Source: Pseudomonadota bacterium (lineage in GTDB: Bacteria > Pseudomonadota > Alphaproteobacteria > Micavibrionales > Micavibrionaceae). Taken from it: a DNA stretch of 49,519 bases. Of the stretch, positions 1,451 through 9,522 are shown one piece after another; the stretch's first letter is position 1; the number at the start of each line of letters is the position of its first letter. Below the pieces are notes generated by a model that was given only the letters and a program-made list of their open reading frames with translations, had not been told where the DNA came from and did no database searches. The position numbers were made by a program, and so were the translations under genes. The stretch is taken from positions 1 through 49,519 of the forward strand of contig CAUJHN010000147.1 in the NCBI GenBank assembly GCA_963204825.1, in the 5' to 3' direction.

Positions 1451-1701
1451 GGCGGATCTCCTTGGCTTTTTGGGTGTATGCGGTCTTTTTACGCCCGTTT
1501 CCTGGTTGTGGCAAGAATCTCGCTTTTCCGCATGCGATTCAAAAAGTTATGAAATGACTATTGCCTTCCGGGCAAATCATGATAAATAGGCGCCAACGCA
1601 CGTGTCTATGGCCCTTCCTTTATGGTTGTTAAGGTTATGCTACGACGGGAAATTTCTTGTTAACCGGGATGCATAATCCCCCTTAATTTGGGTTTACGTT
1701 G

Positions 1702-3723: not shown

Positions 3724-4806
3724 TTATTCCGCTGCGAGGATATCGTCGCCGTTGTCGTTCCCCGTGCCGCCGATTTTTTTGCCGTAGGTGCCGGAGAAGA
3801 TTCCATCGGAGAAAACTTCTTCCCATGTGCCGCCCGTGCTTGCTCTGGAATATTCCGTCGCGCGGTTTTCGAAGAAGTTTGTATGTTCCGCACCGTTCAG
3901 CATTTCATCCATCCATGGCAGCGGGTTTTTCTCTATTCCGAACACGGGTTCGAGGTTGAGCTGCTGCAGACGGCGGTCGCCGATGTAGCGGATGTAGTTT
4001 TTCACTTCCTGCGCGGTCAGACCCTGAATTTCACCTGCAGAGAAGGCAAGATCGATAAAGGCGTCTTCAAAGCCGACGATCGTCGTGCAGGAATCCGTTA
4101 TTTCTTTTTTCAGCTCGTCATCCCATATATCGCGGTTTTCATCGATAAAGGAATTAAAGAGCTTAATCATGGAAAGGCAGTGCAGCGTTTCATCCCGCAC
4201 CGACCATGTGACGATCTGCCCCATGCCCTTCATTTTGTTGAAGCGCGGGAAGTTCATCAGGATTGCGAAGGAGGCAAACAATTGCAGGCCTTCCGTGAAT
4301 GCGCCAAACATTGCCATTGTTTTTGCAATATCGCGGCGGCTGCTCATCGACGCGTTTTGCATGTAATCGAACTTGTCCTTCATCTCCTTGTATTTCAAGA
4401 AGGCGGAGTATTCGATTTCCGGCATGCCGATCGTATCGAGCAGGTGGGAGTAAGCGGCAATGTGCACCGTTTCAATGTTGGAGAAGGCGGAGAGCATCAT
4501 CTGCACTTCGACGGGGCCGAAGACTTGAGAATAATGCTTCATGTAACAGTTATTTACTTCCACGTCGGATTGCGTGAAGAAGCGGAAAATCTGCGTCATC
4601 AGGTTGCGTTCGGAATCGGTTAAGTTCTTTTTCCAGTCGCGCACGTCTTCGGCGAGCGGCACTTCTTCCGGGATCCAGTGAATGCGTTGTTGAGTCAGCC
4701 AAGCTTCGTAGCACCAGGGGTAAAGGAAAGGTTTATAAACATGGCGTTCCTGCAAAAGGGGTGAATTCGCTTTTTCGACGTCATTGATCTCTTTGGCTTT
4801 GGCCAT
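3724..4806 (-). CDS. nrdB: Class I ribonucleotide reductase small subunit
   Basis: NrdB houses the diiron-tyrosyl radical used by NrdA to reduce ribonucleotides. The I-E-T-V-H-I-A-A-Y stretch carries the Glu, His and radical Tyr; A-F-T-E-G and R-D-E-T-L-H supply the remaining iron ligands; the C-terminal third has the usual N-P-L-P-W-M and N-F-F-E-N-R motifs. The start at 4806 is chosen because AGGAG lies eight bases upstream; the frame stays open to an ATG at 4887, but that extra stretch is poorly protein-like. The product is 360 residues, normal for the family. nrdA lies about 3 kb away on the same strand with phosphate-uptake genes between, so the two are not one operon. Paired NrdR boxes lie upstream at 4957-5004. 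Confidence 0.95.
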   Translation of the reverse strand: MAKAKEINDVEKANSPLLQERHVYKPFLYPWCYEAWLTQQRIHWIPEEVPLAEDVRDWKKNLTDSERNLMTQIFRFFTQSDVEVNNCYMKHYSQVFGPVEVQMMLSAFSNIETVHIAAYSHLLDTIGMPEIEYSAFLKYKEMKDKFDYMQNASMSSRRDIAKTMAMFGAFTEGLQLFASFAILMNFPRFNKMKGMGQIVTWSVRDETLHCLSMIKLFNSFIDENRDIWDDELKKEITDSCTTIVGFEDAFIDLAFSAGEIQGLTAQEVKNYIRYIGDRRLQQLNLEPVFGIEKNPLPWMDEMLNGAEHTNFFENRATEYSRASTGGTWEEVFSDGIFSGTYGKKIGGTGNDNGDDILAAE

Positions 4807-4883
4807 TTTCTTAACTCCTGATTTTTTGAATTTCGGTTTTGACTCTAGTGCTCCCTTAAATGAATCCGAGTCATTTCGGCGAT

Positions 4884-4892
4884 TCATCCACA
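4884..4892 (+). promoter_or_regulatory. Possible DnaA box in nrdB leader
   Basis: TCATCCACA differs from the DnaA box TTATCCACA at one base and lies about 80 bases before the nrdB start. Alone it is weak evidence, but nrdA carries a clear DnaA-box cluster. Confidence 0.3.
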
Positions 4893-5126: not shown

Positions 5127-5765
5127 ATGAGCTTTTTAGCAAAGCTTCTGCCAAGCGAAGAAAAATTCCACGTCCTGATGCGGGCCATGTCTGCGAACGC
5201 GCTGGAAGGCGCCGTTCTCCTGAAACAATTTATGAATCAGAATCCGGGCACCGGCCGCGATGAAACGGGGCAGAAAATCGCCGCGATGAAGGCGGAATCG
5301 AAAACGCTGATGGCAAAAGTCACGCGCGAGGTCTCGCTCAGCTTCATCACGCCGTTCGACCGCGAAGACATTCAGGAAATTTCCGGTCAGCTTTACAAGA
5401 TCACGAAGACCATCGACAAAATCCGGGAACGTCTGGAACTCCACAATCTCGGCAGCGACCGCGGCGATTTCGCGCGTCAGGTGGATCTGATCCAGCAGGA
5501 AGCCGCCGTGATGAACGACATTATCGAAGCGCTGACGAAAAAGGGCGGCGAAAAATCGATCATCGACAAGGTCGCCACGCTGCACACGCTCGAAGCCCAC
5601 GGGGATGAAGTGCTCGGCAACCTGCTCGCCAATCTGTTCAACGGTGGCCGCGATGTGCGGGACCTGATCCTGCGCAAAGACATATACGACATGCTGGAAA
5701 AGGTTCTGGATCGCTACCGCGATGCCGCCGGTGTCGCCCTGCAAATCGTTTTGAAAAACAGCTGA
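5127..5765 (+). CDS. DUF47 / PhoU-like phosphate transport accessory protein
   Basis: A 212-residue, almost entirely helical protein of the DUF47 (PhoU-related) family, typically encoded just before Pit-type phosphate transporters and thought to control or assist them. The start at 5127 is preceded by AAGGGG; the frame extends further upstream but without protein-like sequence or a ribosome site. Repeated E-x-x-D/H patterns (for example T-L-E-A-H-G-D-E) fit PhoU-like metal-binding helices. Its stop is one base from the pit start, so the two form an operon. Confidence 0.85.
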   Translation: MSFLAKLLPSEEKFHVLMRAMSANALEGAVLLKQFMNQNPGTGRDETGQKIAAMKAESKTLMAKVTREVSLSFITPFDREDIQEISGQLYKITKTIDKIRERLELHNLGSDRGDFARQVDLIQQEAAVMNDIIEALTKKGGEKSIIDKVATLHTLEAHGDEVLGNLLANLFNGGRDVRDLILRKDIYDMLEKVLDRYRDAAGVALQIVLKNS

Positions 5766-5766
5766 T

Positions 5767-6762
5767 ATGGATCCGGTTATTCTTCTGGTCATTGTCGTCG
5801 CCCTGACGCTGGTTTTCGACTTCATCAACGGATTCCATGATGCGGCGAACGCCATCGCGACTGTGGTTTCCACGCGTGTGATGCGGCCGACGACGGCGGT
5901 TATCTATGGCGCATCGCTCAATTTTGTCGGCGCGCTTCTGGGAACGGAAGTCGCGGCGACCATCGGCAAGGACCTCGTGGACCCGCAGGCCATTACGATG
6001 GTGACCGTGTTTTGCACGATGATCGCGGCGATATGCTGGAATCTTTTGACATGGTGGAAAGGGCTGCCGACCAGCTCATCCCACGCGCTGATAGGGTCCC
6101 TTCTGGGCGCGACTTTTTTCTCCAGCGGCGGCCTTGAAAACATCCATCTGGATAAGGTCTGGGACAAGGTCGTTTCGCCGATGGTCACCTCCCCGGTTCT
6201 GGGCGTTGTCATAGGATTCTCTTTGATGACGATGCTGACATGGCTTGTCTGGCGCACCAAGCTGCCCAAAACCAACCGCCGCTTCGGGCGGCTGCAGATT
6301 CTGTCCGCAGGCTTTATGGCCGTATCGCATGGCCACAACGATGCGCAAAAATCCATGGGTATCATCGCGCTTGCGCTTATGCTCACCTATCCCGGCGAAC
6401 AATTCGACGTGCCCCTCTGGGTGATTCTTTCCTGCGCTATCGCGATGGGGCTTGGCACCATGTCGGGCGGCTGGCGTATTATCCGAACGCTGGGGTCGAA
6501 GATGATCAAACTGCAACCTATTCACGGCTTTGCCGCAGAAACGACGGCGTCCCTCATCATCACGGGCGCTTCGCAATTCGGCATTCCCGTTTCAACGACG
6601 CAGGTCATTTCGTCTTCCATCCTCGGCGTCGGCGCGACGCGCGGCTTTTCCGCCGTGCGCTGGGGCATCGTCGGCAACATCGTCTGGGCGTGGATTTTGA
6701 CCCTGCCGCTGACGTTCGGCTTCGCCGGGCTTTTGATGACTCTGATGAAGACCGTATTTTAA
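5767..6762 (+). CDS. pit: Low-affinity inorganic phosphate transporter, PiT family
   Basis: A 331-residue integral membrane protein with two inverted PiT signature repeats: G-F-H-D-A-A-N-A near residue 22 and S-H-G-H-N-D-A-Q-K near residue 192, each leading into a hydrophobic block. The family imports metal-phosphate with H+ or Na+. About ten membrane segments can be seen, and G-I-P-V-S-T-T-Q in the C-terminal half is the usual conserved loop. It is co-transcribed with the DUF47 gene in front. Its stop codon overlaps the T-run of a terminator that points the other way, serving the riboswitch unit on the minus strand. Confidence 0.92.
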   Translation: MDPVILLVIVVALTLVFDFINGFHDAANAIATVVSTRVMRPTTAVIYGASLNFVGALLGTEVAATIGKDLVDPQAITMVTVFCTMIAAICWNLLTWWKGLPTSSSHALIGSLLGATFFSSGGLENIHLDKVWDKVVSPMVTSPVLGVVIGFSLMTMLTWLVWRTKLPKTNRRFGRLQILSAGFMAVSHGHNDAQKSMGIIALALMLTYPGEQFDVPLWVILSCAIAMGLGTMSGGWRIIRTLGSKMIKLQPIHGFAAETTASLIITGASQFGIPVSTTQVISSSILGVGATRGFSAVRWGIVGNIVWAWILTLPLTFGFAGLLMTLMKTVF

Positions 6763-6798
6763 AAAGAACCCCGCCGTGCCGAAGACAAGCGGGGTTCC
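6761..6798 (-). terminator. Intrinsic terminator behind the TPP riboswitch
   Basis: Read on the minus strand, GAACCCCGC pairs with GCGGGGTTC and is followed directly by TTTTT, whose last bases overlap the pit stop codon. On the plus strand the hairpin lacks a T-run, so its proper direction is minus. It starts only a few bases after the riboswitch. Confidence 0.8.
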
Positions 6799-6802
6799 AT
6801 TT

Positions 6803-6888
6803 GCAAACTCCCTTCGTCGGTATGACCCGCCTCAGGTTATGGGGATGTGATCTCAGCCATTTATAAAACGGCACTCCCGTTGCGCGGC
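6803..6888 (-). promoter_or_regulatory. TPP riboswitch (THI element), orphan
   Basis: The minus strand reads CGGGAGTGCC, then GGCTGAGAT, then ATAACCTGA, then GGGTCATACCGACGAAGGGA, in the order and spacing of the thiamine-pyrophosphate aptamer (consensus G-G-G-G-U-G-C-C, G-C-U-G-A-G-A, A-C-C-U-G-A, then U-G-G-x-U-A-A-U-x-C-C-A-G-C-G-x-A-G-G-G-A). The P4 helix has compensating changes (CGG with CCG). Flanking GCAAC and GTTTGC can close P1. A terminator follows at once, but no thiamine gene does: the next sequence is the antisense of pit. Confidence 0.85.
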
Positions 6889-7006
6889 ACATTCGCAATC
6901 CGGATAAACCGGATCCGAACAACTGAAACGACGGGCGTATTTCATCCGCATCGATTCATACTGCCGCCCTCGCCAACAAGTCTGGGCCGCGTCCGTTCCT
7001 TAAAAA

Positions 7007-7591
7007 TCAGGCCAGCGAGGTGGGTTTTTTTTGCGCTTCCAAAAGCGGGCGCAATTCCCACACGGATGGAATGCGCGCAGACAGCGTGTAATGGGCCACG
7101 CCTTCCAAAGATAAAACCAGTTCCAGGCTTACGGATCTTGCGCGCATGGTGGAAAGCAGGGCGGCGGCGTCGATCGGCGTGCCGACGGTCTTCCGCAGCG
7201 TTTCACCCGGCACCGCGCTGGCTTTGGCCTTATAGAGGATAAGATGCGATTTTCCCTGTTCCAGGGCTGCGACGCAAAGACCGCGCAGGTAGTACCGGTT
7301 GAATTCCCGCTCCGATAAAATCCGCGCCGATTGCGCCTTGTTGATCGCGCGCTTGACTGTGCGCCCCATGGAAGATTTCAGATATTCTGTGTCGAGGAAA
7401 CAGTTGCGGCGGGTGAGCTCACGCTCCAGCCAGACATCGGTGTGGTATTGGATGGCGTCTTTCAGCAGGGATTCCCATTTCTGCTTGCCGGATTCGTTTA
7501 AACGCGGGCTTAGGTAAAGATCCCCGTGCTCGAATTCCGCCAGCATGTACTGGCGCACCGTGTCGTTCAGATTGAGATAGTCGAGTCCCAT
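7007..7591 (-). CDS. Conserved hypothetical protein
   Basis: A 194-residue soluble protein with no signal peptide or membrane segment. The start at 7591 has a good GGAGG site. The N-terminal part (L-N-L-N-D-T-V-R, then L-Y-L-S-P-R-L-N-E-S-G) and the middle (E-F-N-R-Y-Y-L-R-G-L-C) resemble a family of uncharacterised bacterial and phage proteins I remember only as hypothetical. The C-terminal half looks like an alpha/beta domain. It lies behind nrdA on the same strand but is separated by a terminator, so it is probably its own transcript. Confidence 0.65.
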   Translation of the reverse strand: MGLDYLNLNDTVRQYMLAEFEHGDLYLSPRLNESGKQKWESLLKDAIQYHTDVWLERELTRRNCFLDTEYLKSSMGRTVKRAINKAQSARILSEREFNRYYLRGLCVAALEQGKSHLILYKAKASAVPGETLRKTVGTPIDAAALLSTMRARSVSLELVLSLEGVAHYTLSARIPSVWELRPLLEAQKKPTSLA

Positions 7592-7661
7592 GGTTCCTCC
7601 ATGTGGTTCATACGTTCTGTATGGGATTCAGAATAGGGTGCCTGCGCGATGATTGCAAAGA

Positions 7662-7694
7662 TAAAAAAGCCCCCGGTGCTGGGGGCTTTTTTTT
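7662..7694 (-). terminator. Intrinsic terminator of nrdA
   Basis: A GCCCCC-AGCACC-GGGGGC hairpin (minus-strand reading) sits between runs of A and T, directly after the nrdA stop at 7693. Confidence 0.85.
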
Positions 7695-9522
7695 ACTGGC
7701 ATGCCAGACATTCTTCGTATTTTTTGACTTCCGGTTGTTCGGTAAGCTCCGGCTCTCTGCCTTTGCTTTCACGGGATCGGACCCACGATGCGTTGGATTC
7801 TGCGCGCTGGATAGATTTGGAGCGGCAGTAATAGAGAGACTTCACGCCCTTCTTCCACGCTTCCCAGTGAATGCGGTGCAGGTCGGATTTGTGCACGTTG
7901 GCGGGCAGGAACACGTTCAAGCTTTGCGCCTGGCACACGAACGGCGTTCTGTCGGCGGCATGTTCGATCAGCCATCTCTGGTCGATTTCGAACGCCGTCT
8001 TGAAGACGTCTTTTTCTTCCTGTGTCAGGAAGTCCAGATGTTGCACGGACCCTTCGTTGGTGAAGATGGAGGACCATACGTCATCCGTGTTCTGGCCGTG
8101 CGCTTCGAGGACTTTCACGAAGTACTGGTTTTTAACGGCGAAAGATCCGGACAATGTTTTGTGCGTGTACGCGTTGGCGGCAATCGGTTCGATCCCCGGG
8201 CTTGCGCCGCCGCAGATGATGGAGATGGAGGCCGTCGGCGCAATCGCCATCTTGTTGGAAAAACGCTCCATGATGCCGTAATCGGCGGCGTCAGGGCAGG
8301 GCCCGCGTTCATGGGCCAGCTTCACCGAAGCGTCGTCGACGCCGCGCTTGATATGCTGGAACATGCGGCGGTTCCAGACTTTGGCCATCACGCCTTCCAT
8401 CGGAATCATTTTTGATTGCAAGAAGGAATGGAAGCCCATGACGCCGAGCCCGACGGAGCGTTCCCGCATCGCGGCGTATTTCGCGCGCTTCATGGAATCC
8501 GGCGCTTTTTCGATGAAGTCAGTCAGCACGTTATCGAGGAAGCGCATGCAGTCTTCGATGAAGGTCGGATGATCCTGCCATTCTTCAAAGTTTTCGAGGT
8601 TCAGTGAAGACAGGCAGCACACGGCGGTTCTGTCGTTGCCGAGGTGATCGCGTCCCGTGGGCAGCGTGATTTCGGAGCAAAGATTGGACATCTTCACGTT
8701 CAACCCGGCCATCTTGTGGTGATCCGGAATGCGGTCGTTCACATGGTCGATATACACAATATAGGGCTCACCCGTTTCGATGCGGGCGGTGAGGAGGCGA
8801 ATCCAGAGATCGCGCGCCTTCACCTTCGCGACAACGGAATTGTCCTTGGGTGATTTCAGCGGATATTCTTCGTCGTTTTCAACGGCGAGCATGAATTTAT
8901 TATCCACGAGAACGCCGTGGTGCAGGTTCAGCGCCTTCCTGTTCGGATCGCCCCCCGTCGGACGGCGGATCTCGATGAATTCTTCGATTTCCGGGTGCCA
9001 GATCGGCAAATAAATAGCTGCAGAACCGCGGCGCAAGGAACCTTGCGAAATGGCGAGCGTGAGGGAGTCCATCACGCGGATGAACGGCACGATCCCGGAT
9101 GTCTTGCCGTTGCGGCCCACTTTTTCGCCGATGGAACGCACATTGCCCCAGTAGGAGCCGATGCCGCCGCCCAAGGACGCCAGCCAGACATTCTCATTCC
9201 ACAGCTCGACGATATTTTCGAGGGAGTCCTGCGTCTCATTAAGGAAGCAGGAAATGGGAAGGCCGCGGCTCGTGCCGCCGTTGGAAAGAACAGGCGTCGC
9301 CGGCATGAACCACAATTTGGAGATATAATCGTACAAACGCTGCGCGTGCGCGGAATTGTCCGCATAATACATGGCGACGCGCGCAAATAAATCCTGCGGA
9401 CCTTCTTCGGGCAACAGATAGCGGTCATATAAAGTTTCAATCCCGAACTTCGTCAGGTTCGCATCGCGTGAGCGATCGATCTGGACGCGGTTTCCCCCCT
9501 GGATTTGCGCGTAGTCAAACAT
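7693..9522 (-). CDS. nrdA: Class I ribonucleotide reductase large subunit
   Basis: The catalytic subunit of aerobic ribonucleotide reductase, 609 residues. Visible active-site residues are Cys92 (I-S-C-F-L), Cys282 and Glu284 (N-L-C-S-E-I), the V-C-C-L-S-S-L-N-L-E segment at 301-310, the radical-relay Tyr-Tyr pair in S-L-Y-Y-C-R, and the C-terminal C-L-A-C thiol pair at 605-608. The protein begins right at the ten-stranded barrel region and has no N-terminal ATP-cone, so the usual dATP overall-activity switch seems absent; nrdB has none either. The upstream region holds four DnaA-box-like sites. nrdB is encoded about 3 kb downstream on the same strand but not in the same operon. Confidence 0.95.
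   Translation of the reverse strand: MFDYAQIQGGNRVQIDRSRDANLTKFGIETLYDRYLLPEEGPQDLFARVAMYYADNSAHAQRLYDYISKLWFMPATPVLSNGGTSRGLPISCFLNETQDSLENIVELWNENVWLASLGGGIGSYWGNVRSIGEKVGRNGKTSGIVPFIRVMDSLTLAISQGSLRRGSAAIYLPIWHPEIEEFIEIRRPTGGDPNRKALNLHHGVLVDNKFMLAVENDEEYPLKSPKDNSVVAKVKARDLWIRLLTARIETGEPYIVYIDHVNDRIPDHHKMAGLNVKMSNLCSEITLPTGRDHLGNDRTAVCCLSSLNLENFEEWQDHPTFIEDCMRFLDNVLTDFIEKAPDSMKRAKYAAMRERSVGLGVMGFHSFLQSKMIPMEGVMAKVWNRRMFQHIKRGVDDASVKLAHERGPCPDAADYGIMERFSNKMAIAPTASISIICGGASPGIEPIAANAYTHKTLSGSFAVKNQYFVKVLEAHGQNTDDVWSSIFTNEGSVQHLDFLTQEEKDVFKTAFEIDQRWLIEHAADRTPFVCQAQSLNVFLPANVHKSDLHRIHWEAWKKGVKSLYYCRSKSIQRAESNASWVRSRESKGREPELTEQPEVKKYEECLACQ

Follow-up and report, generated by a model that had tools for sequence, protein, structure and literature searches.

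Gene-less TPP aptamers fused to intrinsic terminators in Micavibrio-like Alphaproteobacteria: candidate TPP-binding elements at transcript 3′ ends

We found a TPP aptamer joined directly to an intrinsic terminator, with no thiamine gene to lead, on the minus strand of the window (the whole 49,519-nt stretch of Micavibrionaceae DNA analyzed here), and the same build in seven other genomes of the order. Our best reading is that this is a real, structurally conserved but sparsely distributed 3′-end terminator element, which is either TPP-gated or a candidate TPP binder. More specifically, we tentatively propose from its sequence, with confidence somewhat short of even, that it ends a minus-strand transcription unit as a TPP-gated terminator and is one member of a gene-less class. 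TPP riboswitches are almost always interpreted as thiamine-gene leaders; a conserved, terminator-bearing set with nothing to lead would show the TPP sensor in another use, in at least one carrier organism in which no thiamine synthesis gene was found. The eight defined loci (Table 1) also offer a test set for what orphan riboswitches do.

A cmscan search of the whole window recovered a full-length match to the TPP family RF00059 at 6888-6791 of the minus strand (56.0 bits, E 2.1e-8; gathering score 54.3 bits) and no other Rfam match. The well-formed aptamer described in a sequence-only reading of this DNA, which had proposed the Infernal check with the Rfam TPP model, is thereby confirmed. It is the sole RF00059 match of its own genome, for which the draft assembly comprises 1.94 Mb in 166 contigs and is 90% complete. 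P1 is formed by GCAAC (6883-6879) and GUUUGC (6808-6803), CUGAGA lies at 6856-6851, and P3a is missing. The ligand-contact motifs UGAGA, CCUG and ACG are all present; the contacts themselves we take to be, in E. coli thiM numbering, UGAGA, U59/G60 and C77/G78. We also considered a variant binding pocket (G62/A76, common to the window copy and that of G100) and rejected it, as the position before C77-G78 also varies among ordinary leaders. The same reading had placed a strong terminator within a few bases of the aptamer, and this too holds: 5 nt past P1 begins a 9-bp stem of GAACCCCGC (6797-6789) with GCGGGGUUC (6774-6766), followed by UUUUU (6765-6761), the hairpin having an energy of -20.8 kcal/mol. 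The window thus has the terminator-after-aptamer layout of a transcription-attenuating riboswitch, and aptamer plus terminator score 102.3 bits with R1, a covariance model of both parts trained on the eight copies, the window's included. The 5′ half of the aptamer is overlapped by a 32-aa Cys-rich ORF (minus strand 6853-6951; MRMKYARRFSCSDPVYPDCECAAQRECRFING), which uses the UGA within CUGAGA as its stop and for which no phage matches were found.

Table 1. Features of the window around the element, and settings of the eight gene-less copies; gene names in the relatives were read from the sequences without profile searches, and the tRNA-Arg was recognized by eye
Feature	Position	Strand	Basis or setting
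TPP aptamer core, P1 to P5	6803..6883	-	RF00059 match and covariation over eight relatives
Intrinsic terminator	6761..6797	-	sequence, terminator scan, folding, model R1
194-aa ORF	7007..7591	-	upstream of element, co-directional; Pfam search without match
nrdA, ribonucleotide reductase large chain	7693..9522	-	PF02867
pit, PHO4-family phosphate transporter	5767..6762	+	PF01384, E 7.6e-99; convergent with element
phoU-like DUF47 gene	5127..5765	+	PF01865; upstream of pit
nrdB	3724..4887	-	PF00268; next minus-strand gene in reach of long read-through
Copy in G000 (window)			behind 194-aa ORF, ahead of convergent pit
Copy in G062			38 nt past nrdA, ahead of convergent glutathione-S-transferase-like gene
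Copy in G068			behind flgH, ahead of convergent dksA-like gene
Copy in G071 (G071c)	L072:1824-2060		between trpF and trpB
Copy in G029			between CBS-domain gene and sodC-like gene
Copy in G124			behind CBS-domain gene, ahead of tRNA-Arg
Copy in G121			behind DNA ligase, ahead of Hpt-domain gene
Copy in G100			divergent region, ahead of gene resembling yunG

On the minus strand of the window, the order runs from nrdA through the 194-aa ORF, which has a homologue in G002 only, to the element. No terminator was found in the 118 nt between the stop of this ORF and the Rfam match, and, judging by this arrangement, the element may be the 3′ end of the ORF's transcript. Past the terminator, whose U-run shares bases with the stop codon of pit (6760-6762), the minus strand is antisense to pit-phoU with no sense gene directly downstream, and no thi gene lies close to the element within the window, in line with what the earlier reading had reported. 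The window hence shows the convergent gene immediately past a terminator that typifies an antisense riboswitch, and lacks the thi gene in the same transcript that marks the cis riboswitch of a thiamine gene. Scans of 6700-7700, of a kind that is weak for this group, gave no sigma-70-like promoter. The draft genome, of which about 10% is missing, gave no match to the families of ThiC (PF01964), ThiE (PF02581) or thiamine pyrophosphokinase (PF04263), and the absence of PF04263 is weak evidence in that 34 of the 38 genomes of that search were also without a match.

RF00059 was run against 104 genomes at family level and 142 at order level; the latter set gave 55 matches, which fall into 47 ordinary leaders and the eight copies of the gene-less build. 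Nearly all ordinary leaders reach the start of thiC, a small CHMI-like gene or thiO, or stop just short of it, and inspection revealed no terminator adjacent to any of them; in contrast, each of the eight has an immediate intrinsic terminator and no thi gene. The genes flanking the eight are unrelated. A convergent gene faces three of them, and antisense placement such as that opposite pit is therefore not a common property of the class. Across the order, R1 assigns 77-122 bits to the eight copies and 70 bits or less to ordinary leaders; since the model was trained on the eight, these scores are partly circular, and the informative result is that it finds no ninth copy in the order. Among 385 genomes drawn from Alphaproteobacteria there was no other R1 match above 69.3 bits (filters were stricter in any search covering over 40 genomes, at the cost of weak matches). 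Of the 29 best-scoring loci in those genomes, two (L108 and L126) were centered on the wrong motif, and none of the 27 centered on a TPP-like stretch displayed an adjacent terminator. Members of the class, gene-less TPP aptamers that are joined to an intrinsic terminator, are so far seen only in this order of Micavibrio-like Alphaproteobacteria; the recurrence of the build in seven genomes besides that of the window probably means that such stand-alone sensors form a genuine class and are no leftover. We found no paper that joins "TPP riboswitch" with "Micavibrio", nor a recurring, lineage-restricted TPP class of this build in the limited literature searched, subscription journals lying outside it. 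Spread as a mobile element was rejected on account of the single copy per genome and of a DNA search of the family that gave only one other aptamer-wide match (G100).

The structure of the eight copies is conserved. In a structure-fitted alignment, which by its nature leans towards the structure, 84.5% of cells pair and 17 of the 30 pairs are changed on both sides; none of 500 shuffles reached this covariation, and a shift of the partner by 1 to 3 columns breaks the signal. Comparable exchanges in P1, P2, P3 and P5 are seen in an unfitted MAFFT alignment. UGAGA is kept throughout (8/8) and C77-G78 in six copies, with partial loss in G062 and G071c. The neighborhood has also been kept in one instance: contig L176 of G062, from another genus, resembles the window in that nrdA is followed by the element and, further along, by pit and phoU, both encoded on the other strand. 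Over 121 positions, the two elements have 66% identity, as against 49% at the four-fold sites of nrdA, which, if the copies are orthologous, points to an RNA kept under selection and argues against a recent relic. A scan of 80 nrdA loci with R1 for further copies yielded L176 as the only convincing one. In G002 and L160, pit lies beyond nrdA and the element is absent; in G002, which is of the same genus as the window, pit adjoins the homologue of the 194-aa ORF with neither a riboswitch nor a thi gene between them, suggesting that the element is dispensable in some lineages. The CBS-domain proteins beside the G029 and G124 copies are 37% identical and may mark a second shared location, to be taken with caution as CBS proteins are common.

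These data bear on whether the element is a relic, that is, a former thi leader or a decaying copy without present function. The sparse distribution (8/142), the absence from G002, the degenerate binding residues of G062 and G071c and the lack of ThiC, ThiE or TPK family matches in the window's own genome would all fit such a history, which we nonetheless consider quite unlikely in light of the covariation across the eight copies, the retention of the element in the same neighborhood across genera at that four-fold divergence, and the thi leaders of the order, which, unlike all eight, run up to the start codon and have no terminator. Of the three options offered by the sequence-only reading (a short thiamine-dependent RNA, control of an antisense read-through over pit, or the remains of a switch whose thiamine gene had moved), the last has become the weakest: the build occurs in eight genomes, never with a thi gene, and at nrdA...pit in another genus. 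Likewise, the lost thiamine gene that it had suggested seeking at the pit 3′ region of relatives is not there in G002.

As a TPP-gated terminator, the element would act on the transcription unit that ends at it, in the window that of the 194-aa ORF. A TPP-bound aptamer would leave the terminator free, such that transcription stops and a short 3′ RNA results; when TPP is lacking, a segment of the aptamer (for several copies, the 5′ strand of P1/P2) may pair with the 5′ arm of the terminator and allow read-through, which would run antisense over pit and phoU in the window and into the next gene in other genomes. Antisense control of pit is thus a possible outcome in the window, and if the copy of G071 is active, trpB expression would become TPP-dependent. 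Several lines of evidence favor this proposal, including the separation of the eight from the 47 ordinary leaders, the covariation with retained contacts and the G062 copy at nrdA...pit. Six of the copies lie 36-118 nt past a co-directional gene with no terminator between, and would thus be the first terminator that the upstream transcript meets. When the RNA is folded only up to the terminator 5′ arm, this arm forms pairs inside the aptamer, frequently with the 5′ strand of P1/P2, and most clearly in G121, G071c and G029. Pairing energies of matched 5′ strands and arms exceed those of permuted combinations (P 0.021), but the class signal weakens to P 0.057 when arms are shuffled with the C-run kept. 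For the window copy, the fraction of such shuffles at least as good is 0.26 by pairing and 0.64 by energy, and we rejected an antiterminator specific to it as no better than shuffled arms. Enforcing its native aptamer costs 4.9 kcal/mol, by our estimate plausibly payable by TPP binding, and lowers arm pairing from 0.79 to 0.24; the corresponding energies for G124, G071c and G029 are unreliable because the fitted alignment is off there. Overall, the modeled folds at most suggest an antiterminator switch in the class. Besides the shuffles, the loss of C77 or G78 in G062 and G071c, the lack of a common function among downstream genes, and the sparsity, down to its absence in a congener, weigh against gating. 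So do the copies of G068, with a terminator between flgH and the element, and of G100, with its divergent neighbor, both of which would need a promoter of their own.

The last point leads to the main rival of the gated terminator, a stand-alone TPP-binding small RNA that would be constitutively terminated, arise from its own promoter or an upstream 3′ end, and act in trans or as a TPP buffer. Two copies could arise from their own promoter only, aptamer and terminator are able to fold side by side, no downstream gene is common to the set, and a gene-less riboswitch RNA exists in another predator, Bdellovibrio (PMC3627812). We hold this alternative to be doubtful: no promoter-like site was found upstream of the window's element, which instead speaks for the gated terminator, the antiterminator pairing is suggestive, and the storage role of the Bdellovibrio RNA, merRNA, is itself unproven. 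A broader formulation, in which lineage-specific gene-less TPP-sensing RNAs of Micavibrio-like bacteria, whether 3′-end or stand-alone, buffer TPP or act in trans and are not thiamine-gene leaders, is in our estimation unlikely. It is very improbable that the element serves a distant co-directional gene as an ordinary cis riboswitch. The window's candidate, nrdB, shares the strand of the element at a distance of about 1.9 kb, with pit and phoU intervening; G071c, G029, G100 and G121 do have a co-directional gene about 80-115 nt past the aptamer, but what lies downstream differs per genome (trpB, sodC-like, Hpt, yunG-like, tRNA-Arg or antisense).

Antisense, 3′-end and gene-less riboswitches each have precedents. 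In sequence, P1-P5 architecture and its UGAGA and CCUG..CG motifs, the element is an RF00059/THI element, differing from most relatives in the order by its immediate terminator and the lack of the thiC, CHMI-like or thiO start codon at which they end. Two known riboswitches, the SAM-responsive one at ubiG-mccBA in C. acetobutylicum and the B12-responsive one of AspocR in Listeria, terminate an antisense RNA upon ligand binding (PMC9943018). As in the window, a riboswitch and terminator lie there where a convergent gene ends; a link between ligand and target (phosphate transport) is not evident in the window, and antisense placement holds for only three of the eight. That a TPP antisense riboswitch would be unusual, as had been supposed, stands in diminished form, with 83 of 9,766 TPP riboswitches antisense-placed in a 2023 survey (PMC9943018). 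Listeria LysRS also terminates its upstream gene (PMC8079631), as predicted here for an element likewise situated between genes, but controls a downstream lysine transporter, whereas the window element has no cognate gene behind it. SreA of Listeria acts in trans (PMC8079631), showing that a terminated riboswitch product can serve as a small RNA, though, unlike the window element, it also controls its own cognate operon. Closest in lacking a downstream gene and in stemming from a predatory bacterium is merRNA of Bdellovibrio bacteriovorus, a proposed ligand store (PMC3627812); it binds c-di-GMP and not TPP, is 445 nt long and has measured, massive expression.

The ordinary leaders of the order provided two further observations. 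In many Micavibrionaceae, the first gene behind the TPP riboswitch encodes a CHMI-family protein of about 110 aa (PF02962, E 9e-19 and 1e-16 for L002:1592-1924 and L021:6956-7288; about 20 further loci), with thiC next wherever a longer stretch was read, and this riboswitch-led place suggests a role of the gene in thiamine metabolism. In G073, a TPP riboswitch (L049, aptamer 1501-1591, minus strand) leads straight into a 140-aa membrane-protein ORF (MSPKMYSYLG...) and no known thi gene.
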